A stretch of DNA of 64,000 bases. It comes from a marine gamma proteobacterium HTCC2080 (GTDB taxonomy: Bacteria > Pseudomonadota > Gammaproteobacteria > Pseudomonadales > Halieaceae). Positions 8,317 through 30,294 of the stretch are shown piece by piece. Numbering within the stretch: position 1 is the stretch's first letter; each line of letters opens with the position of its first letter. Position numbers and translations under genes: made by a program. The stretch lies in assembly GCA_000169115.1 (NCBI GenBank), contig AAVV01000002.1, forward strand, positions 186,001 to 250,000. The letters run 5' to 3'. The notes beneath the pieces were generated by a model that searched no databases, was not told the origin of the DNA, and saw nothing but the letters and a program-made list of their open reading frames with translations.

Positions 8317-9582
8317 TTAACGTAGTACTTTTATATCCCAAGCGATGGAGGCCTCTATCGCTTCACCCGTGTCTGTAAACGCAGGTCTAAACCGCATCGC
8401 TCTTAGCTGGCGCTTAGCAAAACCTAGCAACGTGGCATCTCGTAACCCAACCTCGCTCAAGACAATGTTTCGCAGGCTGCCCCGTGTAGACACGTCGGCA
8501 CTAACGTTAAATGCCTGCCATTCACGGCTGAATCGATGATCACGACTTAGACTAGGAATTTCGGGTAAGGAGCCAGGCGTTGAGAAATCGTAATTTCCTT
8601 GGTCGTGTAACTGTCGATAAATCTGTAGTGCCTGGGCTTGGCGCCCAGTAAACATTAGCCAGTCAGCCTTCGCATGCAATAAGGTTGAGTCATCGGGAGA
8701 TCGCTGCAGGGCGCGATCTATAAGTCCTCTCGCGCTAGAACCCAATGTGCTTTCGATACTACGTAATCGGTACTCTCCAGGAGATTGATCACGATTTTGC
8801 TGATAGGGACTAGGATAGCGATCTTGGGAGACACCAAAACTATCGACCACCAAAGGATCAACCCTAAAATCAATGAGGTAGTAGAGCTTAAGAACTTCAA
8901 GGCTTATCGCTTTGCACCAAAGATCCTGCCACTGAGCGCTGTCGCACACAGCCTCAGCCATATCATTGCCGTGCTTGAGGACAAATAGAACATCGCTCTC
9001 TGAACCCGGCCAAAGGACGCTGGAAAGCAGTTCATTCTGCACCGACAGCCAGCGAAGTGAGGCTTGCAAACCCTGCTCACTCCAAGGTTCAGCACCGCCT
9101 CCCAACAACCGATAAAAGTAATCAATCTGGCGACCCACTTCAACAGGGTCTCCTTGGTTACGGAGCAATTCAAGAATGCGCTCCAATAATGGCAGTTGCT
9201 CAGCAGTGCTTAAGCCACTATTAATTCGCGTGCTGTGTAACGCCCACCGGTAAAGGCTAAGGGCTGCTTCTGCAGACCCATACTCCTCAGCCTCTCTGGC
9301 AGCGTTGACTAGCGTCGGTGTCAACTCTGGTGAGTAAGGCCCCACTCTGGCTTCTAAATCCTGAATGGTCTTTGCGGTTGCATTGAGACGCCGCTGAATC
9401 ATCAGCGGCGAGGTTAATTCTGTGGGCACTGACGCCGCTACGGCGTTGTCGAGCCACAAAACATGAACTCCCCAGGGCTGTGGGTCTCCCGCAAAACTCG
9501 ATGCATGCCAACCGCCTCCCAATGTTATATAAAACACTGTGTGCAAAAGCGCGGCCGCCAAAGATTTTTTGCTACCAAACAT
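8317..9582 (-). CDS. Secreted TPR-rich protein with TonB-C-like C-terminus
   Basis: A 421-residue protein not assigned to a named gene. An N-terminal signal-like segment (about residues 1-32, hydrophobic core AAALLHTVFYITLGGG) suggests export. The middle has Ala/Leu-rich helical repeats typical of tetratricopeptide folds. The last about 55 residues (GSLRNIVLSEVGLRDATLL onwards, then RQLRAMRFRPAFTDTGEAI) follow the TonB C-terminal pattern in which small residues precede a conserved W/MRFRPA core. There is no proline-rich linker and no clear membrane anchor, so it is not a classical energy transducer and more likely a periplasmic scaffold. The ATG is at 9580-9582; the upstream region holds an orphan terminator. 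Confidence 0.7.
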   Translation of the reverse strand: MFGSKKSLAAALLHTVFYITLGGGWHASSFAGDPQPWGVHVLWLDNAVAASVPTELTSPLMIQRRLNATAKTIQDLEARVGPYSPELTPTLVNAAREAEEYGSAEAALSLYRWALHSTRINSGLSTAEQLPLLERILELLRNQGDPVEVGRQIDYFYRLLGGGAEPWSEQGLQASLRWLSVQNELLSSVLWPGSESDVLFVLKHGNDMAEAVCDSAQWQDLWCKAISLEVLKLYYLIDFRVDPLVVDSFGVSQDRYPSPYQQNRDQSPGEYRLRSIESTLGSSARGLIDRALQRSPDDSTLLHAKADWLMFTGRQAQALQIYRQLHDQGNYDFSTPGSLPEIPSLSRDHRFSREWQAFNVSADVSTRGSLRNIVLSEVGLRDATLLGFAKRQLRAMRFRPAFTDTGEAIEASIAWDIKVLR

Positions 9583-14451: not shown

Positions 14452-16314
14452 TCAGGGGCGATACCAAATAGCTGACGTGTAAGCACGCTCCTGTAACGTG
14501 TCTGGGCGTCGGGTATCAACCTCGCCACCTAGGGCCAGCTTATCGAGTAGCGAGTGGCGTGCGGTCGGTATTTGTAGCACTCGAACGTAATAGAAAGCCG
14601 ATGAGCTTGGATCAAAATCGGGATCACTCCAGGCCGCGGTTAGGCGCCCTGCACCCACAGAGTTGTCCACCCGCCCACTCGAGAGATCGACAGTATTTGC
14701 AATCGGTCTCAACGAGCCGTCGGCTAGCAATCGCTGCTCACCAGCCCAAGCGACATCATAAATTTGTTCTTGCGTACTTCCGTCAGGCAATGCCCAGCCC
14801 TTAATCACTTGTACTCGGTCAAGGGAGCCAGACGCAGGATCCGCAGTGGCTTCAATTAATAAGGTTGGCGCCGCCCCTTCTGCTGCACTCATAAGTTCGC
14901 CACCCATGGGCACCGCTTGTTCCAGCACATTAGCTGGGAAGTTGGCGTCCTCCAACAAACCACTCGCCAGATTCCAGCCGCCGTAAACTCTAACGCCGAT
15001 ACGCGGCCCTGTAGTGGCATAAACTTCTCTACGGCGCATGGCTGAAACAATGCTTTCTCTAGTATTGTCCTCTGCCCAAACTGCAGCAAGGCCCGAAGCT
15101 GACATAGCCCATCCGAAGGGCCTTTTTGGTTCGTCGCCCCAGCCGGAACTCTTCTTACTGGGAATGGAATCGGTTACAAATTTACCCTGAAAATTAGCCT
15201 CCTCCGCACTGGGTAGCGCCGTATGCCCATCTGTCGAGCCAATCACTCCAAACTGATAAGGGTTGACGCCCAAGTCGTCCTCGAGGCTCAGCCCACGGCG
15301 CAGCGCGGAGCGCACGTAGTCGCCCGGCTGTGGTTTGTACTCAGTCCAACGACTCTGGATATAAAAGGGGTAGGTCTCAAAATCAGCAAACGGATCGTCA
15401 GGAGAGAGCGATGAGTGTGCTTCTGAATCACCTTTTATCTGGGTTATCTCAACAATAGGCTCCCAATAGCGGCGAAGCTCGGCATATTGAGCATCAATTT
15501 TCTCACCCCGCAAGGACGTCATATCAAACATAACGCCCTTTGAGATATTCGAATTGTGGGGGATCGCCAAAAAGGTGCCTCCCGTCGATTCTGCAGTGGT
15601 TTCAAGCCATTGCCAAAGGTCTTCAGGAAAGGAACTATTGTCGAGGCCGTATGGGACAAAGGTCTGAGCTGTTTTAGCATCGATATCACCAATAACAACG
15701 CGGTGTAGATTAGCGCCACCGGGAATAGCGCTGTATTCCCATCCAATCAAGGCCGTAAACTCACCCGGCGCATTATGGGCATCAGCCGCTTCAGTGATAG
15801 TTTTCCAAGCATCTGCTTCAACCGAAGGTAAATCAGGAATCCAACCCACATCCGCGTCCCAGTCCCTCGCGGCAGCCGCGTAATCATCTGTTGGTTCAGG
15901 CAGTACACCCAGAAACAAATTGCGAGCGGTCTGCTGATCGACGGCGTCCCGAAGTATGGCGGTTGCCACCCAAGCCTTAAGGCTGTCGATCATAGATAGG
16001 TCTTCGCGCGTCACGCCGTCATAGTAAACACTTCGGATTACACCCATGAGCTCAGCATGGTCTGATACGACCAGAAAATCTAACGGAGTTTCGAGCTGTA
16101 CCCGCCGCCCATCCCAACCGTGCACCACTGGAGACCCTTTGGCGAATCGATAGGCCATGTCCGGAGTCGCCGTTAAATTATTGTTGGCAAAGGCATCCGA
16201 CGAATAGGTTGTATGCAGGTGTGTATCGCCCCAAAGCAACTCTTTCGCTTCAGCCTTAGACGCCGTTGCCATGGTCACAACAGAAAGCAAGACGACCCAG
16301 TTCAAGTTTTTCAT
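14452..16314 (-). CDS. Exported DUF3604 family protein
   Basis: About 620 residues. I chose the ATG at 16312-16314, preceded by GAGA seven bases upstream, because it opens a clean signal peptide (MKNLNWVVLLSVVTMATASKA); an upstream in-frame start would add 25 odd residues and overlap the next gene. After the signal comes LLWGDTHLHTTYSSDAF, a PHP-like metal-binding start; VVSDHAELMG and the late STDGHTALPS supply more His/Asp ligands. DUF3604 proteins are presumed metal-dependent hydrolases; the substrate is unknown. The neighbours deal with lipids and acyl-CoA, which is only a hint. Confidence 0.85.
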   Translation of the reverse strand: MKNLNWVVLLSVVTMATASKAEAKELLWGDTHLHTTYSSDAFANNNLTATPDMAYRFAKGSPVVHGWDGRRVQLETPLDFLVVSDHAELMGVIRSVYYDGVTREDLSMIDSLKAWVATAILRDAVDQQTARNLFLGVLPEPTDDYAAAARDWDADVGWIPDLPSVEADAWKTITEAADAHNAPGEFTALIGWEYSAIPGGANLHRVVIGDIDAKTAQTFVPYGLDNSSFPEDLWQWLETTAESTGGTFLAIPHNSNISKGVMFDMTSLRGEKIDAQYAELRRYWEPIVEITQIKGDSEAHSSLSPDDPFADFETYPFYIQSRWTEYKPQPGDYVRSALRRGLSLEDDLGVNPYQFGVIGSTDGHTALPSAEEANFQGKFVTDSIPSKKSSGWGDEPKRPFGWAMSASGLAAVWAEDNTRESIVSAMRRREVYATTGPRIGVRVYGGWNLASGLLEDANFPANVLEQAVPMGGELMSAAEGAAPTLLIEATADPASGSLDRVQVIKGWALPDGSTQEQIYDVAWAGEQRLLADGSLRPIANTVDLSSGRVDNSVGAGRLTAAWSDPDFDPSSSAFYYVRVLQIPTARHSLLDKLALGGEVDTRRPDTLQERAYTSAIWYRP

Positions 16315-16373
16315 GGTTACTCTCGGATTGTGAACACGTCGGTTACGTGTTGAACGGAAAAACCAGAAGCGCA

Positions 16374-17171
16374 TCATCGCCCCTTCCATGTGTAGGGTTT
16401 TTTAGCAAAAAAAGCAGCTACAGCATTTGGGCAATCTTCACTCGAAATGCAAAACTCCTGCAGGTCCGCTTCTTTGGTAATCGTATCTCCTAGAGATGCC
16501 GTCGTTGCGAACCGCAACGCTTCCTTTGTGTATCGAAGCGCCAGTGGAGAGCGCCCTGCTAAATTTTCAGCAAACTCCTTCGCTTCGTCGGCAAAGGCAG
16601 CCTTTTCGAAAACCCGATTGGCCATTCCCCATTCAAGTGCTTTCTGCGCGCCCAGTTTTTCCCCAAGTGTCATTAGCTCAAAGGCTCGTTTATTCCCAAT
16701 GAGTTTCTGGAGAAGCCAGGTTGACCCGCCGTCCGGGATTAAGCCAATCGCCGAGAAGGGCTGATATAAATAAGCATCCTCGGCCATAACCACAAGATCA
16801 CAGGCCATGGCATAGCTATAACTGATGCCCGCACAAGGCCCATTAATAGCAGCGATCCAGACTTTCGGCGCTTCGGCTATTGCCAAAACGCCAGGTTTAA
16901 ACTCATGAATAAGGTCGTCTCGAGTCTGTGCGCCGACCATCAAATCCGCACCAGCACTATCGTCTGCGAGATCAGCACCGGCTCCAAAGGCTCTGCCTTC
17001 ACCCGTTAAAATCACTACCCGAATTGCCTCATCCATATTTATCTCACGAGCAGCAGCATAAAACTCCCGGCGCATTTGACCGTTCATCGCGTTGAGGCTA
17101 TCCGGGCGATTAAAGGCAACTCTGGCGACAGCACCATCACAAGTAACGTTAACGGTTTCAAATTTTGACAT
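16374..17171 (-). CDS. Enoyl-CoA hydratase/isomerase (crotonase family, PaaG-like)
   Basis: A 265-residue crotonase-fold enzyme acting on acyl-CoA thioesters. The oxyanion-hole motifs are RAFGAGADLADD near residue 60 and NGPCAGISYSYAMACD near residue 110. In the catalytic loop it reads QPFSAIGLIPDGG: the position that carries the first catalytic Glu in true enoyl-CoA hydratases appears to be Phe, and the Asp of PDGG is kept. That is the pattern I know from PaaG-type isomerases, so double-bond isomerisation is more likely than hydration. It lies in a leftward group with sprT and an acyl-CoA ligase. Confidence 0.85.
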   Translation of the reverse strand: MSKFETVNVTCDGAVARVAFNRPDSLNAMNGQMRREFYAAAREINMDEAIRVVILTGEGRAFGAGADLADDSAGADLMVGAQTRDDLIHEFKPGVLAIAEAPKVWIAAINGPCAGISYSYAMACDLVVMAEDAYLYQPFSAIGLIPDGGSTWLLQKLIGNKRAFELMTLGEKLGAQKALEWGMANRVFEKAAFADEAKEFAENLAGRSPLALRYTKEALRFATTASLGDTITKEADLQEFCISSEDCPNAVAAFFAKKPYTWKGR

Positions 17172-22652: not shown

Positions 22653-24188
22653 TCACGTATTTTTGTTCCGATACGCCTCCATCAAGTGGCGCTTGTAGAG
22701 CTTTCCGTTATCCATTCTTGGCAGCTGCTCCATGAAATCTAAATTTCTGGGAATTTTGATGTGAGACAACCGTTCTTGTAACCACTCCTTCAGCTCTAAG
22801 GCCGTTTCGTCGGTAGCATCACCCCAGTTGGCGGGCTGCACAACGGCTTGAACAGTCTCACCAAATTCATCACATGGAACGCCAAAAACTGCCACATCGG
22901 CGACTTTGGCATGATTGATGAGTAGGTTTTCAATCTCTGCAGGATAAATGTTGACGCCACCCGATATGATCGTGAAGTTCTTTCGATCGGTAAGATACAA
23001 ATAACCCTCTTCATCGAGGTACCCCATGTCACCTACAGAGGTCCAGCCATCTTTGTTGTAGGCTTCAGCGGTTTTATCAGGCTCATTGTGATACTCAAAC
23101 TTATTTGCAATATCGGAAAACCAGATTCCTCCGACCTCGCCAGCTGGTAGCTCATTACCCTCCTCGTCCAATACGTGAGGAACGCCAAACAGCGGACGAC
23201 CAACCGAGCCTTTGTGGTTTAGCCAATCATTAGAGTCAATCAGGGTGAAGCCCGCCCCCTCACTCGATGAGTAGTATTCGAGGATCACAGGACCCCACCA
23301 ATCAATCATTTGCTCTTTTACATCAATGGGACACGGCGCTGCGGCGTGTATCGCCATCTGCATCGAGCTAGTATCGAACTGGGTCCGCTGCGCCTCAGGG
23401 AGCTTGAGCATTCGAACGAACATTATTGGCACCCATTGGCTGTGGGTGATGCGATGCTCCTCTATTATTTCCAATGCACGAAGGGCATTGAACTTTTCCA
23501 TGATGATGGAGGTGCCACCCGTATCCAGAACAACCATGTTGTAGTGCAAAGGCGCGGCGTGATACAGCGGCGCAGGAGACAGGTACGTTGTCTCCGGACC
23601 AAACCCAAAAGCGGCTCCCAAAGACAACGTCAAGGGCAATGGCTCATCAAAAACCTCGGTGTAGGGCTTGTTATAAACCCCCTTGGGCTTTCCTGTGGTT
23701 CCCGATGAATACAACATCGTTGTACCCATAGATTGGTCATCAATAGCGGTTATAGGTAATGTATCAACGGTTTCCTCCCAAGAGAGAAACCCATCTTCAA
23801 TGCCGCCTATCATATAAAAATGCTTGAGCGCAGCAGCGCTACCAATCATATGAACCGCCACAGATGCCAGTGAATGCGACGCAACAAACAATTTGGCCCC
23901 ACAGTTCTCTAAAATATAAGCCGTTTCATCTTCTTTGAGATGCGTGCTGATTGGCGTGAAGATAATGCCAGACCGCATGGCACCCGTCGTAATTTCGAGA
24001 AACTGCCGACAGTTTTCCACCATAATGGCGACGTGATCACCAGACTTAAGCCCGCAGAGACGAAACAAGTGGGCGATCTGATTACTCCTAGCCTCTAATT
24101 CACCATAGGTGACCATCTCTCCGGAGTTAGCCATGATGAAGGCGGGTTTGTGTGGGGTTTCAGCTGCAGTAATTGATATATGGGGCAT
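22653..24188 (-). CDS. Acyl-CoA synthetase (ANL superfamily)
   Basis: A 511-residue adenylate-forming ligase, different from the one at 17868. Motifs in order: [45 protein letters not shown] followed by [20 protein letters not shown], and the C-terminal lysine loop [15 protein letters not shown]. The start ATG at 24186-24188 is 72 bases from the start of the divergent DUF1445 gene. The acid substrate cannot be inferred. Confidence 0.9.
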
Positions 24189-24260
24189 CAGGGCTCTCGC
24201 AATGGTATGTTTCTCCCACTATACAAGAGCGCGCAGCGAGTTAAAGCAAAGGAGATAAAA

Positions 24261-25064
24261 GTGAGCATTGGAGACCCTCTTAAGCTTATGGCACCCGAGC
24301 AGCTGCGGCTTGCTGCACGTCAAGGCAAATTCAATAAACCTACTAGCGGTATGGCCCCGGGTTTCGTGCAATGCAATTTAGTGATTGTCCCCCAGCATTA
24401 CGCCGGAGATTTCGCGGATTTTTGTCGGCGCAATCCAAAGCCCTGTCCACTTCTAGCAGTAAGCCCCAGGCCCGGTGATTTTAGCCTACCCGAGCTTGGA
24501 CTTGATATTGATGTGCGCACTGACATACCCCGATACAGGCGCTGGGAAGATGGTGTTCTCGTCGACGAACCGAGCCACCTGCTTGATCACTGGACTGACG
24601 ACCACGTCGCCTTTGCATTGGGCTGTTCGTTTTCTTTTGAAGAAGCACTCCTTGCTGGAGGGCTTGAGATTCGGAATATTTCTGAGGGCGTCAACGTACC
24701 GATGTTTCGCACTAATCAGCCCTGTGCATCCGCTGGGCCTTTTGCAGGTAATCTAGTCGTTAGCATGCGGCCCATGAAGCCCAAGGACGCCATTAGAGCC
24801 ATCCAAATTTGCACCCGTTTCCCCGCAGTTCACGGCGCCCCTGTGCACTTTGGCGACCCTACCCAGATCGGCATTGGGGACCTTCAGCAACCCGATTTTG
24901 GCGACGCAGTATCGATAAGAAATAACGAAGTTCCGCTATTCTGGGCCTGCGGGGTCACACCGCAGGTAGCACTAGAAAATGCCAAAATACCCTTGGCTTT
25001 TACCCACGCTCCCGGTTACATGCTGGTATCCGATAAACTCAATACAGGACTTGCCGTACTGTGA
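24261..25064 (+). CDS. DUF1445 protein (YcsI/D-glutamate cyclase N-domain family)
   Basis: About 267 residues from the GTG at 24261, chosen because an AGGAGA ribosome-binding site lies seven bases upstream; a longer frame from 24180 would run into the divergent gene's start. The protein reads as the DUF1445 family (B. subtilis YcsI): [33 protein letters not shown], and the late [11 protein letters not shown] and [11 protein letters not shown]. In mammals this domain is joined to DUF4392 in DGLUCY, which turns D-glutamate into 5-oxo-D-proline. It is the first gene of the seven-gene operon and overlaps pxpA by four bases (GTGA). Older annotations call it a putative hydro-lyase. Confidence 0.88.
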
Positions 25065-25855
25065 AAGCTGTAAAAAGCGTCGTAAGGCGCAGCCGAAAAA
25101 AACAAGCCAACCAAGCAAACATCAAACTCAACTGTGATTTGGGCGAAGGTTTTGGTGCCTATACCATGGGCTGCGATGAGGAGATCATGCCGCTCATTGA
25201 CTCTGTAAACATTGCCTGCGGCTTTCATGGCGGTGATCCGTCTATCATCCGTCAGACTGTCCTACTCGCCAAACGCCACAAAGTCGAAATGGGCGCCCAC
25301 GTCGCTTATCCAGATTTACAGGGTTTCGGACGTCGCTCAATGAATATAAGAGGTCAGGAGCTGATCGACTGCATTCAATACCAAATATCTGCACTAGATG
25401 GGATGGCGCGCACTCATGGCGGCCGTGTTACCTATGTCAAACCTCACGGCGCGCTATATAACGACATGAATACCGATGAAGCACTTGAAAGAACGGTCAT
25501 GCATGCCGTTGCCTCATGGCATCGCCCTCTTGAACTGGTTCGACTCGCCACCCCCCGCGATAAAAAGTCGGTTGAGACCGCCTTTGAATACGGTCTGAGC
25601 CTGCGTTTTGAGGCTTTTGCTGACCGAGGCTATACCCGAGCAGGCTACCTAGTGCCGCGAGATAAACCTGGGGCTGTATTAGATGTCGCCGCCGCCGTTG
25701 CTCAAGCGAAAGCCATCGCCTCGGGCACACTGCGCAGCGTAAAGGGACACAAACTCAATATTGTCCCAGACACGCTCTGTGTTCACGGTGATACCCCAGC
25801 AGCGTTTGACATGCTTAAAGCAATTCGCTCAGCGCTGCAAACACCCGCAGACTAG
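25061..25855 (+). CDS. pxpA: 5-oxoprolinase subunit A (LamB/YcsF family)
   Basis: Component of the ATP-dependent prokaryotic 5-oxoprolinase PxpABC, which opens 5-oxoproline to glutamate. The 264 residues include the family's N-terminal signature [16 protein letters not shown], the run [24 protein letters not shown] and the C-terminal CVHGDTPAA. The GTG start overlaps the stop of the DUF1445 gene. Before the conserved core there are about 20 residues rich in Lys/Arg that most family members, as I know them, lack; no later in-frame start sits in that stretch. Confidence 0.95.
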
Positions 25856-25858
25856 GGT

Positions 25859-26545
25859 ATGCAGTGTAGCCATGCCGGTCTAACAGGCATCCGATTGAGT
25901 CACGATGACTCCCCTAGCCCGGCTGTCACCGCTAGCCTCATCGCGTTACGGGATCGACTGAATTCGAAATTTCCCAAGGGACTGACCGACTGTGTGCTGG
26001 GCTACCGCACCCTGACCGTATTTTTTGATCCTGCCGAGCTCTCTCGAGAAACTTTACTTGGCGCCATTAGTGACTTGGACGGCAAACTGGACGTCGCATC
26101 GAATAATAGCGAATACTCAAGCCGGACCATCGAGTTGCCCGTTTGGTATGCCGAGGAATCAGGTCAAGACTTATCGACTGTTGCCAAGCGCAGCGGGCTA
26201 TCCGTGGCTGCAGTTATCGAGCTGCATTCCAGCACTGCATATAATGCCTATGCCACGGGTTTTGCGCCGGGTTTTTGTTATCTGGGTGAAGTCTCTGAAC
26301 AATTGGAAATGCCACGTTTAGGAACCCCTCGACGGGCAGTCCCACCAGGAAGCGTCGCGATCGCAGACCGGCAAACAGCTGTCTACCCTTCACGCTCCCC
26401 GGGTGGGTGGCATTTGTTAGGACGCTGCCCCCTCCCACTCTTCGATCTAGAGCAAACTCCTCCGGGCTTAATCTCCGTGGGTGATCAAGTATCATTTAAG
26501 CCCATCTCTCGAGATGAATTTCTCTCCATGGGCGGCAGGTTGTGA
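25859..26545 (+). CDS. pxpB: 5-oxoprolinase subunit B (KipI family)
   Basis: Second subunit of PxpABC; in B. subtilis the relative KipI was first known as an inhibitor of the sporulation kinase KinA. The 228 residues show the family core FAPGFCYLGEVSEQLEMPR, the run VPPGSVAIADRQTAVYPSRS, and GGWHLLGRCPLPLFD. The ATG starts 3 bases after the pxpA stop and the gene's end overlaps pxpC by four bases (GTGA), so it is part of the same translationally coupled unit. Confidence 0.95.
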   Translation: MQCSHAGLTGIRLSHDDSPSPAVTASLIALRDRLNSKFPKGLTDCVLGYRTLTVFFDPAELSRETLLGAISDLDGKLDVASNNSEYSSRTIELPVWYAEESGQDLSTVAKRSGLSVAAVIELHSSTAYNAYATGFAPGFCYLGEVSEQLEMPRLGTPRRAVPPGSVAIADRQTAVYPSRSPGGWHLLGRCPLPLFDLEQTPPGLISVGDQVSFKPISRDEFLSMGGRL

Positions 26546-27522
26546 CTGGGCTTCGCGTAGTCAAAACGGGCTTGCTAGCCACCGTGCAAGACCTAGGTCG
26601 AGTTGGCTACTTAGGGCATGGGATCACTGCAGGTGGCGCTCTAGACGCATTTTCATTGCGATGTGCTAATCGACTGCTCGGGAATGCTGATCACGTCGCA
26701 GGACTCGAGATAGCGTTGACGGGCCTGACTTTAGAGGCGACCTGCAATCTGCAGCTGGCCTTGTGTGGTGCCTCCGCCACGCTCTCCATCAACGGCGAAG
26801 AGCAATTCATGGATCAAGCGCTATGGGTATCAGCTGGGTCGACTATCACTATTGGCAGAGCCTTAACCGGCACTTACAGCTACCTAGCGATTAAGGGCGG
26901 AGTATCAACGCCGCAGGTTCTTGGCAGCCGCAGTACAGTGGTTCGAGAAGGTATAGGTGGGCTGAATGGCCAAGCTTTAAAGCCGGGAGACTTTTTGCCG
27001 ATCACGGGTTTAGACAACTCAGCAACTGCCCAATCCCCGACGCGTCACTGGCAGCGACAGCTTCAAGCCAAACCAGCCGCTCAAAATGATATTCTGCGCC
27101 TAAGATTTTTACCGGGATTACACTACGACGATGTTATCCAAACCTGCAGAGATACTTTGTGTGCCCAAACATTTACCCTTTCTGGTGCCGCAAATCGTAT
27201 GGCCGCTCCTCTGATTGGCAATCCGGTAGATACTGGACTGACAAAACTTTGGTCAGAACCCACCTGCCTGGGCTCGATTCAAATACCACCCGATGGGCAA
27301 CCTTTAGTGCTTTTAAATGATCGCCAAACCATGGGGGGCTACCCTCAGTTAGGCGTGATCATTCCACTTGATCGGGTGCGGCTCGGCCAGGCAAGACCGG
27401 GACACAAGGTTCGGCTTGAAGCAATGACACTGGCGGCGGCTGAGCAAGTCGTTTGGTTACACGAGCACTACGAGGAAACCCACCTTAAGGCCCTTGATCG
27501 TCTAGGAGGCACCTCACCTTGA
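26542..27522 (+). CDS. pxpC: 5-oxoprolinase subunit C (biotin-dependent carboxylase-like, KipA family)
   Basis: Third subunit of PxpABC. The 326 residues begin with the typical VVKTGLLATVQDLGRVGYLG and AGGALDAFSLRCANRLLGN, contain YLAIKGGVSTPQVLGSRST, and near the C-terminus DRQTMGGYPQLGVIIPLD. The domain resembles allophanate hydrolase subunit 2 and urea carboxylase parts. A GTG start overlaps the pxpB stop; its own stop overlaps the next gene by four bases. Confidence 0.95.
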   Translation: MTGLRVVKTGLLATVQDLGRVGYLGHGITAGGALDAFSLRCANRLLGNADHVAGLEIALTGLTLEATCNLQLALCGASATLSINGEEQFMDQALWVSAGSTITIGRALTGTYSYLAIKGGVSTPQVLGSRSTVVREGIGGLNGQALKPGDFLPITGLDNSATAQSPTRHWQRQLQAKPAAQNDILRLRFLPGLHYDDVIQTCRDTLCAQTFTLSGAANRMAAPLIGNPVDTGLTKLWSEPTCLGSIQIPPDGQPLVLLNDRQTMGGYPQLGVIIPLDRVRLGQARPGHKVRLEAMTLAAAEQVVWLHEHYEETHLKALDRLGGTSP

Positions 27523-28367
27523 CCTCGCTAGCCGACACTAGCTGCCTCCTAGAGCGGGCTCTAGTTGCGAGGAACCCAAGAGGGATGCGCCAAGTGCAAG
27601 AGTCGCAGCCACCGGGCTATCTTTTGCGTGCTGCGCAGAGGGTTGTTGCGGCCGAAGGCAATATCATTGTTTGTACTGGGTTTCCTGTGGCGGGCACCTT
27701 TGAAACCGACGGCCCTCCTGGAGCTTTTGCGCTCTATCATTTTTTGGAAAGTCTTGGAACCAAACCTTGGTTGCTGACAGGTGATGCCATAATTCGTGCT
27801 CTGGGGGAATCCATTAGAACTTGGCCTTTAGTCAGTTTCGACTATGAAGGCGCCCATGCCGAGGCACAGGGACTACTTCTTGATCTTGCGCCTTCACTCA
27901 TCGTTATGATTGAAAGACCTGGTGCCGCAGCAGATGGACGTTTCTACAATATCGCAGGAAAAGATATCACTGCGCATTGTCGACCCGTCGAGCCTCTGTT
28001 AGAGCTCGCAAGCTGTCCCGTTATTGCTATCGGGGACGGCGGCAATGAGGCGGGCATGGGACGCGCCGGGCAAATACTCGACACGCTTGATATAAAGCCA
28101 GCAAGTGTTGGGTGTGATGAGCTTATTGTAGCCGATGTCTCCAATTGGGGAGCCTATGGATTAATAGCTATGGCAGAGGCAATTTGTGAACGACCCGTTC
28201 TCGATTGGCTCGATAGCGATGCGCTTTTGCAGCGGTGTGTAGACCTAGGCGCGGTCGACGGCGTCAGCCATGAGCCGACCAACACAGAAGATGGCTTTAA
28301 AGCTGCAGTGGGCGAAGCACTTGTCGAAGAAATCAGGCAGATAATCAGTAGAGGTAAAGCAACATGA
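27519..28367 (+). CDS. DUF4392 protein (D-glutamate cyclase C-domain family)
   Basis: A 282-residue protein of the DUF4392 type, the C-terminal domain of mammalian D-glutamate cyclase (DGLUCY). Visible conserved stretches are VCTGFPVAGTFETDGPPGA near residues 50-70, LIVMIERPGAAADGRFYNI, IAIGDGGNEAGMGR (glycine-rich, nucleotide- or anion-binding-like) and VADVSNWGAYGLIAM. Its placement after pxpABC, with the DUF1445 gene before pxpA, brackets the 5-oxoprolinase genes with the two halves of a D-glutamate cyclase. It overlaps both neighbours by four bases, so the cell likely makes these proteins in fixed ratio. Confidence 0.88.
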   Translation: MTSLADTSCLLERALVARNPRGMRQVQESQPPGYLLRAAQRVVAAEGNIIVCTGFPVAGTFETDGPPGAFALYHFLESLGTKPWLLTGDAIIRALGESIRTWPLVSFDYEGAHAEAQGLLLDLAPSLIVMIERPGAAADGRFYNIAGKDITAHCRPVEPLLELASCPVIAIGDGGNEAGMGRAGQILDTLDIKPASVGCDELIVADVSNWGAYGLIAMAEAICERPVLDWLDSDALLQRCVDLGAVDGVSHEPTNTEDGFKAAVGEALVEEIRQIISRGKAT

Positions 28368-29218
28368 CCATCGCATACCTAAACGGTAAGTTTGTGCCTT
28401 TAGAGGATGCGCGTATCTCTCCAATGGATCGCGGCTTCCTTTTTGGTGACGGTATTTACGAAGTAATACCCTGCTACGAGGGACAGCTCGTTGGCTTCCA
28501 GCGACACATGCAACGGTTTGATCAGGGCCTCGCTGCGATTCACCTCGAAAATCCAATGTCAGACGTGGAATGGCAATCACTCTTCCACGAATTAACGTCG
28601 CAAAACCAAGGTGAGTATCAAGGTGTTTATTTGCAAGTAACACGCGGCGCTTCTGCTGTTCGAAACCATCGTTTTCCTGCTGATTGCCAGCCCACCGTGT
28701 TCGCCTATACCTTCAACGTAAATGCGCCCTGTAATGGTGACCCTGCTACAGCTACGTGTTACCGCGTGGCAACTGCTCAAGATCGCCGATGGAAGCGCTG
28801 CGATATTAAATCCGTTGCGTTACTTGGCAATGTGCTGCACATGATGGAAGGTGTTGACGCTGGCGCGGATGAAATCATTCTATTCAACGAACAAGAAGAG
28901 CTCACGGAGGCGGCTGCCTGCAATGTTTTTATTGTTCAAGATGAATCGGTGATCACCCCACCCTTAGATGTCGAAAAACTACCGGGAGTTACGCGAAACA
29001 TGCTGATCGATATTTTGCGCGGTCAAGATTGGCGGGTAGAAGAGCGCGCAATTAGCCGCAGAGAAGTTACGAACGCAGACGAGGTTTGGCTAACCAGCTC
29101 CACTAAAGAAATTGCGCCGGTAATCGACATCGACGGACAAAGCGTTACTGATGGTAAGCCCGGGCCTGTATGGGCAGAAGCACAATCACTGTTTGCACGT
29201 CATCGTTTCAGCGCTTGA
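28364..29218 (+). CDS. D-amino-acid transaminase (class IV aminotransferase)
   Basis: PLP enzyme that exchanges amino groups between D-amino acids, typically D-alanine and 2-oxoglutarate giving D-glutamate and pyruvate. The 284 residues fit fold-type IV. The N-terminal MDRGFLFGDGIYEVIPCYEG matches D-amino-acid transaminases better than branched-chain ones. The PLP lysine is K149 in CDIKSVALLGNVL, the phosphate region is ELTEAAACNVFIV, and LPGVTRNMLIDI follows. It overlaps the DUF4392 gene by four bases and precedes alanine racemase by 8 bases, the genetic setting expected for D-Ala/D-Glu exchange. Aminodeoxychorismate lyase is excluded as a likely role because a separate pabC is present at 48.4 kb. 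Confidence 0.88.
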   Translation: MTIAYLNGKFVPLEDARISPMDRGFLFGDGIYEVIPCYEGQLVGFQRHMQRFDQGLAAIHLENPMSDVEWQSLFHELTSQNQGEYQGVYLQVTRGASAVRNHRFPADCQPTVFAYTFNVNAPCNGDPATATCYRVATAQDRRWKRCDIKSVALLGNVLHMMEGVDAGADEIILFNEQEELTEAAACNVFIVQDESVITPPLDVEKLPGVTRNMLIDILRGQDWRVEERAISRREVTNADEVWLTSSTKEIAPVIDIDGQSVTDGKPGPVWAEAQSLFARHRFSA

Positions 29219-29226
29219 GATAAATC

Positions 29227-30294
29227 GTGCCAAGACCCACCTCCCTATCTATTGATCTTAATGCGCTTTCGAACAACGCTGCGACCACGCGCAGGCTTGT
29301 CGGTAACAGCAAAATTTTAGCCTCGGTCAAAGCCAATGCCTATGGACACGGACTCACTCGCTGCAGTGAAGCCTTGAATCAAAAGGTCGATGGCTTCGCA
29401 GTCGCCTTTTGTGAAGAGGCGGTTCTCCTTCGCCAACAGGGCATTACCTTGCCTCTTTTGCTGCTGGAGGGCCCATTCGATCGCGAGGATGTTGATGCCA
29501 TCAAGGAGTACGACCTTATGATGGTGGTACACAGCCACCACCAAATCGAGCTACTTCAAAAATCCGCTTGCCCGCTCACTTCTCCAGTATGGATTAAAAT
29601 TGATACTGGGATGCATCGATTGGGATTCTCTCCAGCAGAGGCACCCTCCGTCGCCCAACGCCTGCACGAAATGGGGGCAAGCTCCACGATACTCATGACC
29701 CACTATGGAGAGGGTGAAGAGCCTGCATCAGCACTGACCCAAGAACAGCAAAGAGCCTGGCAAACATCGACACACTCAATCACATCGGCCACCAGCGCCG
29801 CTAATTCTGCGGCCATAATCAATACGTTAGCGCCCAATACAGACTGGATGCGCCCAGGCATTATGCTCTATGGCGCAGCACACTCTGATCCCATCGGCGC
29901 TTCCCTTGAGGCTGTCATGTCCTTTAGATCAGAGGTCATGGCGATGCGACATATTCTGGCGGGTGATACTGTTGGTTACGGAGGAAGATGGCGAGCACAG
30001 CGCGATAGCACAATCGCAACAATTCCAGTGGGCTACGGCGACGGTTATCCCAGAGGCGCTGAAGACGGAACGCCTGTGTGGCTTCAACATCAATGTGTCC
30101 CGCTGGTCGGCAGGGTTTCCATGGATATGATTACTGTTGACGTTACAGACTTCGCAGGCTGTCACATCGGCACGTCGGTCGAGCTCTGGGGAAAACATTT
30201 ATCGGTCAATGAGGTCGCTAAACATTCGGGCACTATTGGCTACGAACTTCTCACGCGACTGACGGGTAGAGTACCCGTGAACTACCATCTCTAG
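29227..30294 (+). CDS. alr: Alanine racemase
   Basis: PLP enzyme interconverting L- and D-alanine. 355 residues from a GTG at 29227. The PLP lysine is K35 in ASVKANAYGHG, and the opposing catalytic tyrosine is Y251 in DTVGYGGRW. Also visible are IDTGMHRLGF and the C-terminal GRVSMDMITVDVTD. It lies 8 bases after the D-amino-acid transaminase, last gene of the operon. In this position it probably supplies or drains D-alanine for the transaminase, in a catabolic role, or it may be the cell's only alr for murein; the window does not show whether another exists. Confidence 0.95.
   Translation: MPRPTSLSIDLNALSNNAATTRRLVGNSKILASVKANAYGHGLTRCSEALNQKVDGFAVAFCEEAVLLRQQGITLPLLLLEGPFDREDVDAIKEYDLMMVVHSHHQIELLQKSACPLTSPVWIKIDTGMHRLGFSPAEAPSVAQRLHEMGASSTILMTHYGEGEEPASALTQEQQRAWQTSTHSITSATSAANSAAIINTLAPNTDWMRPGIMLYGAAHSDPIGASLEAVMSFRSEVMAMRHILAGDTVGYGGRWRAQRDSTIATIPVGYGDGYPRGAEDGTPVWLQHQCVPLVGRVSMDMITVDVTDFAGCHIGTSVELWGKHLSVNEVAKHSGTIGYELLTRLTGRVPVNYHL

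Follow-up and report, generated by a model that had tools for sequence, protein, structure and literature searches.

The 64,000-nucleotide stretch of contig AAVV01000002.1 from the marine gammaproteobacterium HTCC2080 analysed here (the window) carries seven genes in a row on one strand, encoding a DUF1445 protein, the 5-oxoprolinase subunits PxpA, PxpB and PxpC, a DUF4392 protein, a class IV D-amino-acid transaminase (Dat) and an alanine racemase (Alr). The operon is real and conserved, with two of its genes fused in four related loci, and it is probably a D-amino-acid module for murein with a return branch through 5-oxoproline. In the proposed scheme, Alr would turn L-Ala into D-Ala and Dat would transfer the amino group of D-Ala onto 2-oxoglutarate to provide D-glutamate (D-Glu); the DUF1445/DUF4392 pair, as a two-gene form of the mammalian D-glutamate cyclase DGLUCY, would cyclise surplus D-Glu downhill to 5-oxoproline, which the ATP-driven PxpABC would then open to glutamate. 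The supply half, in which Alr and Dat make the D-Ala and D-Glu of murein without the reversible racemase MurI, is very probable, the gene content being observed and the activities predicted. The return half, in which DUF1445/DUF4392 and PxpABC take D-Glu via 5-oxoproline to glutamate, has slightly better than an even chance in our view, given homology, thermodynamics and the gene fusions.

No description of the whole seven-gene set as one operon was found in the open-access literature searched. Each enzyme type is known, and split cyclase homologues have already been tabulated (PMC11580864), so it is the combination that appears new.

A conserved operon and its variants

All seven genes score far above the Pfam gathering cut-offs, bearing out the enzyme identities given in a preliminary description of this DNA. 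Its account of the layout, seven genes on one strand with ATGA/GTGA overlaps and gaps of 3-8 bases, stands for genes, coordinates, strand and gaps and needs correction in one overlap: the 4-base overlaps read GTGA, GTGA, TTGA and ATGA, and the gaps are 3 (pxpA/pxpB) and 8 bases (dat/alr) long.

Co-occurrence in the gene neighbourhoods of relatives had been set beforehand as a test, and its outcome supports the operon. PF14336, the family of DUF4392, was detected in 27 of the 194 genomes sampled from the order (above the cut-off in 26) and was absent from all 14 control genomes. Regions were fetched for 26 of the 27, leaving aside the window's own; the sub-threshold genome (G104) holds no DUF4392 gene. 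Together with the best 80 of at least 519 DUF4392 matches from a GTDB genome scan, and with operon membership defined by the same strand, gaps of at most 1500 bases and a score of 60 bits or more against a window protein, this gave 105 loci with a DUF4392 gene, 103 of them distinct. The nearest named DUF4392 relatives among the matches listed are Luminiphilus metagenome-assembled genomes (MAGs), with 92, 85, 84, 74 and 59% identity. All seven genes stand in the window's order in 51 of the 103 distinct loci, a LysR gene between them being allowed, and four further loci hold the complete set with pxpC and DUF4392 fused, giving 55 complete sets in all. The remainder comprises 13 loci without alr, 7 with DUF1445-pxpABC-DUF4392 only, 14 cut by a contig end and 14 smaller variants.

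In the fusions (L086, L109, L117 and L135), PF02626 and PF14336 lie in one frame of 587-607 amino acids (aa). The carriers are two Porticoccaceae, one SAR92 and one Cellvibrionales MAG, and the four fusions may go back to a single event. In some relatives a LysR gene (PF03466/PF00126) separates DUF4392 from dat or precedes DUF1445. In three loci (L083:4583-5704, L107:5253-6503 and L129:4529-5650) a divergent alr-type gene upstream of DUF1445, with 136-144 bits to the window's, replaces the terminal alr; Pfam recognises both alanine racemase domains in those of L107 and L129. Genomes with a broken-up cluster keep parts of it at other sites, namely PxpB in G003, G047 and G138 and DUF1445 in G003 and G134.

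Restriction of the operon to one genus is refuted by the spread of the loci. A phylum sample of 398 genomes yielded PF14336 in 10, the window's own included. Within the same class, family f48 contains one genome with DUF1445-pxpABC-DUF4392-dat (G456), one with the same row lacking a pxpA match (G357) and two with DUF1445-DUF4392 (G539 and G567). G547 (family f59) encodes a 3573-aa protein with two DUF4392-like stretches (L175:4680-15401), adjoining DUF1445 and a LysR-like gene. In four genomes of other classes DUF4392 is divergent, scoring 70-158 bits against the window's, and is not directly flanked by operon genes; in one of the four, pxpA and pxpB lie about 7 kb off. Two apparent DUF1445 fusions of 692 aa (L091 and L105) were judged from their sequence to be artefacts of a reading frame that runs across the adjacent acyl-CoA synthetase gene.

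D-Glutamate supply in genomes without MurI

The window's genome (G000; 3.58 Mb in 25 contigs, 99.4% complete) gave no match to the MurI model TIGR00067 at E ≤ 0.001, and neither did six other genomes of family f1 in the sample; the same model matched in 10 of the 14 control genomes. No Asp/Glu racemase of PF01177 was found over the cut-off in G000, only a 22-bit fragment, nor any other Asp/Glu racemase over the cut-off in the seven f1 genomes. That G000 makes murein follows from one murD scoring above the cut-off, at 400 bits; near it the contig shows three weaker matches, which we name Mur-ligase-like by inference. The single alr match and the single dat match at E ≤ 1e-40 in this genome are both operon genes. 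As these are the sole such matches and MurI has none, the murein of G000 most likely receives its D-Ala and D-Glu through Alr and Dat instead of MurI.

The two proteins agree with these predicted roles. Alr has both alanine racemase domains and an equivalog-level score. The nearest solved relatives of Dat are D-amino acid aminotransferases (4pbc), and it matches the canonical D-amino acid aminotransferase motif of F, Y, [VA], [KRPT], xYxQ and RxH (PMC10003956) at every position (F27, Y32, V34, P36, Y89xQ91 and R100xH102); in the xYxQ element, H replaces Q in 18 of 22 aligned Dat sequences. Dat can supply D-Glu in S. aureus, where a murI dat double mutant needs D-Glu and the single mutants do not (PMC5458566). 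There Dat works beside MurI, whereas in the window's genome MurI has no match and dat shares an operon with alr and the 5-oxoproline genes.

Across the order (n = 194; partial murI matches in G092, G113 and G187 counted as present; an operon genome being one with DUF4392 and dat beside it), Dat occurs in 47 of 54 genomes without murI versus 23 of 140 with it (p = 3e-20), and murI is absent from 20 of 25 operon genomes versus 34 of 169 others (p = 7e-9), both by Fisher tests that ignore phylogeny. Such contrasts exist inside families and within genus g59, where G068 has the operon and Dat and no murI, and G152 and G174 have murI and neither Dat nor the operon. Alr is encoded inside the operon in 22 of the 25 operon genomes and is the sole alr match in 19 of these 22. 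Beyond the order sample, murI was searched for in 50 genomes that contribute to the 80 scanned loci, many of them MAGs in which some absences may be gaps, and was found over the cut-off in only 10; the cultured Halioglobus pacificus, Parahaliea mediterranea and Lacimicrobium alkaliphilum gave no MurI match over the cut-off, only 22-27 bits. A Dat-like match at E ≤ 1e-25 is present in 49 of these 50 genomes, the best reaching only 204-216 bits in G208, G228, G231, G239 and G240, and absent from G233.

This distribution also bears on a reverse use of the set, in which 5-oxoproline would be the source of murein D-Glu and Dat a backup, and which we regard as very improbable. The absence of murI from most operon genomes examined (20 of 25 in the order and, over the cut-off, 40 of 50 elsewhere) would suit it, as would the five genomes with weak Dat matches and G233 with none, but Dat and Alr are in principle enough, Dat is present in 27 genomes of the order that have neither murI nor DUF4392, and the reaction would carry a free-energy cost. 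DUF1445-PxpABC-DUF4392 as a needed source of D-Glu in murI-less genomes was rejected on account of the 49 of 50 genomes with a Dat-like match, five of them low-scoring.

The preliminary description had taken catabolism of murein-derived D-amino acids as the main role, a view that we do not share. No transporter gene lies between the seven window genes by Pfam annotation and gene coordinates, no MurI match was found, and the operon holds the sole alr and dat matches; given the last two points, the core function is more likely to be the supply of murein precursors, 5-oxoproline then belonging to the return branch. A catabolic operon would use external or recycled murein D-Ala and D-Glu as nitrogen and carbon source, with Dat converting D-Ala to pyruvate plus D-Glu and with the cyclase and PxpABC regenerating Glu, and a D-Ala aminotransferase pathway has reportedly been described in Pseudoalteromonas CF6-2. 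The LysR gene in some relatives' clusters and the set without alr in 13 of 103 loci fit such a role, and in the operon genomes that keep murI (5 of 25 in the order, 10 of 50 elsewhere) catabolic use is possible. We nevertheless consider it unlikely for the window's operon, since a sole alr and a sole dat match in a murI-less genome are hardly purely catabolic, and since three clusters of DUF1445 and pxp genes without DUF4392 carry transporter-type genes, of which the window's operon has none. Neighbours were identified in 3 of 15 DUF1445 regions, of which L154 and L157 have LysR-like, tripartite ATP-independent periplasmic (TRAP) transporter (DctP, DctQ and DctM) and pxpABC genes, and L150 has an Nramp-like gene with pxp genes; these represent 5-oxoproline clusters of an uptake type.

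Several observations weigh against assigning D-Glu supply to Alr and Dat across these genomes. The Fisher tests take no account of phylogeny, murI persists in the 5 and 10 operon genomes just named, and PxpB alone shows no link to murI loss in the order (p = 0.11). All 26 DUF4392 genomes over the cut-off have Dat, versus 44 of 168 others in the order, an association that is nearly circular because dat is in most cases part of the operon, from which the search profile was also derived. The independent evidence is small: Dat is found in G103 and in 7 of 8 genomes elsewhere with a dat-less DUF4392 run, five by weak matches only, two of these with a dat-like gene within 6 kb on the opposite strand; all 8 are without murI over the cut-off. 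The window's Dat falls below the curated cut-offs of TIGR01121 (238 of 277 bits) and NF005209 (268 of 320 bits) and therefore owes its name to the motif and the nearest structures and not to NCBIfam equivalog status.

Other sources of D-Glu come into question as well. Over the cut-off, 7 of the 20 murI-less operon genomes (G003, G009, G046, G082, G131, G159 and G177) have another protein of the Asp/Glu racemase family, which could provide D-Glu there, and routes via MurD2-MurL or a bifunctional DapF, as described in Chlamydia (PMC5885031), may exist. Seven genomes (G039, G059, G076, G105, G157, G164 and G167) have neither murI over the cut-off nor Dat at E ≤ 1e-40, so the sample holds a further route to D-Glu, possibly MurD2-MurL. 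In G041 and G135, dat adjoins alr with no murI match and no 5-oxoproline genes found in the fetched regions. Finally, G010 (L139:9115-14060) and G052 (L141:3-4580) show a second way of linking genes for 5-oxoprolinase with those for D-amino acids: pxpABC stands in line with a phosphoribosyltransferase gene (PF00156), dat and alr, and the genomes have no DUF1445, DUF4392 or murI over the cut-off, so that pxpABC may stand near dat-alr for another reason. Replacement of DUF4392 in these two genomes was rejected, the gene in question being that for the phosphoribosyltransferase.

A putative split cyclase and the proposed return through 5-oxoproline

Both DGLUCY domains (PF07286 and PF14336) are present in the window as two genes rather than one, in agreement with the separate cyclase halves of the preliminary description, whose chain from L-Ala/D-Ala via D-Glu and 5-oxoproline to Glu appears plausible from the gene content. 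By sequence, the DUF1445 protein is a homologue of the N-terminal half of the mammalian enzyme and the DUF4392 protein of its C-terminal half. In mouse DGLUCY (9030617O03Rik/C14orf159) both domains lie in one chain, and the recombinant protein converts D-Glu to a product reported as 5-oxo-D-proline (PMC5339696); in the window, by contrast, the pair is embedded with genes for 5-oxoprolinase and D-amino-acid synthesis, and its cyclase activity is putative. Gut microbial homologues of human D-glutamate cyclase were tabulated as 6 split and 0 full-length (PMC11580864). DUF1445 and DUF4392 adjoin without pxpABC in L036, L182 and L183, as a minimal counterpart, in two genes, of the mammalian fusion.

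The DUF1445 protein has solved relatives in 3db9 and 2pif, and its structure model reaches a predicted local distance difference test score (pLDDT) of 89.7. Over residues 48-277 the DUF4392 protein is homologous to TON_0340 (structures 5gkx/4fc5; 113 bits), a DUF4392 protein of Thermococcus with six acidic metal ligands (PMC5132392). All six are retained as E62, D64, E132, D173, E177 and D258, each invariant in 19 of 19 sequences. TON_0340 differs from the proposed cyclase in having been described as a probable Mn-dependent phosphatase, with low activity (PMC5132392). This raises a role in repair or salvage, in which cyclised D-Glu is reopened by PxpABC for murein and DUF4392 is not a cyclase but a Mn-dependent phosphatase assisting a phosphorylated intermediate. 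Besides the activity of TON_0340, the fusions link DUF4392 to PxpC, one of two subunits thought to phosphorylate 5-oxoproline, and loss of PxpABC harms B. subtilis even on ammonia as nitrogen source (PMC13274462). We nonetheless hold this role to be doubtful.

For the proposed cyclase and return branch, gene content in the order is informative. Among the 26 DUF4392 genomes, 25 hold DUF1445 and 25 hold PxpB over the cut-off; the exception without DUF1445 is G082, where the contig ends at DUF4392 and the genome is 87% complete. All 48 DUF1445 genomes have PxpB, with or without DUF4392 (46 over the cut-off; 131-137 bits in G036 and G191), and of the 23 genomes with DUF1445 and no DUF4392, 3 have Dat, so that no association appears. 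B. subtilis is the sole control of the 14 with DUF1445; the protein is presumably YcsI, encoded beside pxp genes. The window encodes PxpA, PxpB and PxpC together, the same three subunits as in B. subtilis PxpABC and C. glutamicum pxpTABC. The latter has a transporter and a regulator (PMC13274462), whereas the window operon is without both and has DUF4392, dat and alr added.

Cyclisation of Glu is strongly favoured, with an equilibrium constant [Glu]/[5-oxoproline] of about 0.035, and PxpABC uses ATP for the reverse (PMC13274462). The favoured cyclisation and the ATP-spending opening would thus push D-Glu one way into glutamate. The cyclase pair and PxpABC would then drain D-Glu in one direction into the glutamate pool, a way back that MurI would otherwise provide.

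Some points tell against this branch. PxpC scores 200 bits, below the cut-off of 500 of the PxpC equivalog NF045499. No report of the use of 5-oxo-D-proline by PxpABC was found in the open-access literature searched, and with 5-oxo-D-proline as the reported DGLUCY product, the loop would be futile or a salvage step if PxpABC gave back D-Glu. Dat is reversible and hence a second outlet for D-Glu. If PxpABC takes 5-oxo-L-proline only, an inversion step would be needed, for which DUF1445 is a candidate because all 48 DUF1445 genomes of the order have PxpB, whether or not DUF4392 is present. The cyclase pair, inversion of the lactam at the 5-oxoproline stage and PxpABC acting on 5-oxo-L-proline would together make a split, ATP-driven, one-way D-to-L inversion of glutamate in place of MurI's return function, an elaboration that we put forward as speculative and rather improbable. 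A 5-oxoproline epimerase would, to our knowledge, be a new enzyme.

Should the module with its return branch prove right, the human mitochondrial enzyme DGLUCY would gain relatives in bacteria whose metabolic setting is clear and in which PxpC is a physical partner. The way in which D-Glu, an essential part of murein, is obtained and kept in balance by a wide range of marine bacteria, many of them without MurI, would likewise be explained, and the D-amino-acid cycle of the ocean would gain a step from D-Glu to 5-oxoproline.

Gene layout and neighbouring features

The start of DUF1445 is a GTG 3' of AAGGAG; the mechanical open reading frame begins earlier, at 24180. No sigma-70-like match was found in the 72-base gap upstream of this gene (Table 1). 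A promoter or terminator signal was rejected, with 4 promoter-like and 9 terminator-like matches against 5.3 (standard deviation 2.4) and 6.3 (standard deviation 2.8) in shuffled sequences, and none in the 72-base gap.

Table 1. Coordinates of the operon genes and presumed control region in the window, with supporting matches.
Feature	Position	Strand	Evidence
DUF1445 protein, 267 aa	24261-25064	+	PF07286 (D-Glu_cyclase) 214.5 bits; NF003969 'putative hydro-lyase' 387 bits, cut-off 324
pxpA, 5-oxoprolinase subunit A, 264 aa	25061-25855	+	PF03746 292 bits; NF003816 304 bits, cut-off 213
pxpB, 5-oxoprolinase subunit B, 228 aa	25859-26545	+	PF02682 214 bits; TIGR00370 equivalog 167 bits, cut-off 145.6
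pxpC, 5-oxoprolinase subunit C, 326 aa	26542-27522	+	PF02626 259 bits; TIGR00724 domain 246 bits, cut-off 230
DUF4392 protein, 282 aa, TTG start	27519-28367	+	PF14336 (GLUCM-like_C) 200 bits
dat, class IV D-amino-acid transaminase, 284 aa	28364-29218	+	PF01063 158 bits
alr, alanine racemase, 355 aa	29227-30294	+	PF01168 201 bits and PF00842 145 bits; TIGR00492 equivalog 327 bits, cut-off 168
Presumed control region, 72-base gap between divergent acyl-CoA synthetase gene and DUF1445	24189-24260	.	gene coordinates

Downstream of alr, a ppx/gppA gene follows after 89 bases. Elsewhere in the window, the minus strand carries a 421-aa reading frame with no Pfam match at E ≤ 1e-5 (8317-9582) and a gene for a DUF3604 protein of 645 aa (14452-16389; 764 bits).

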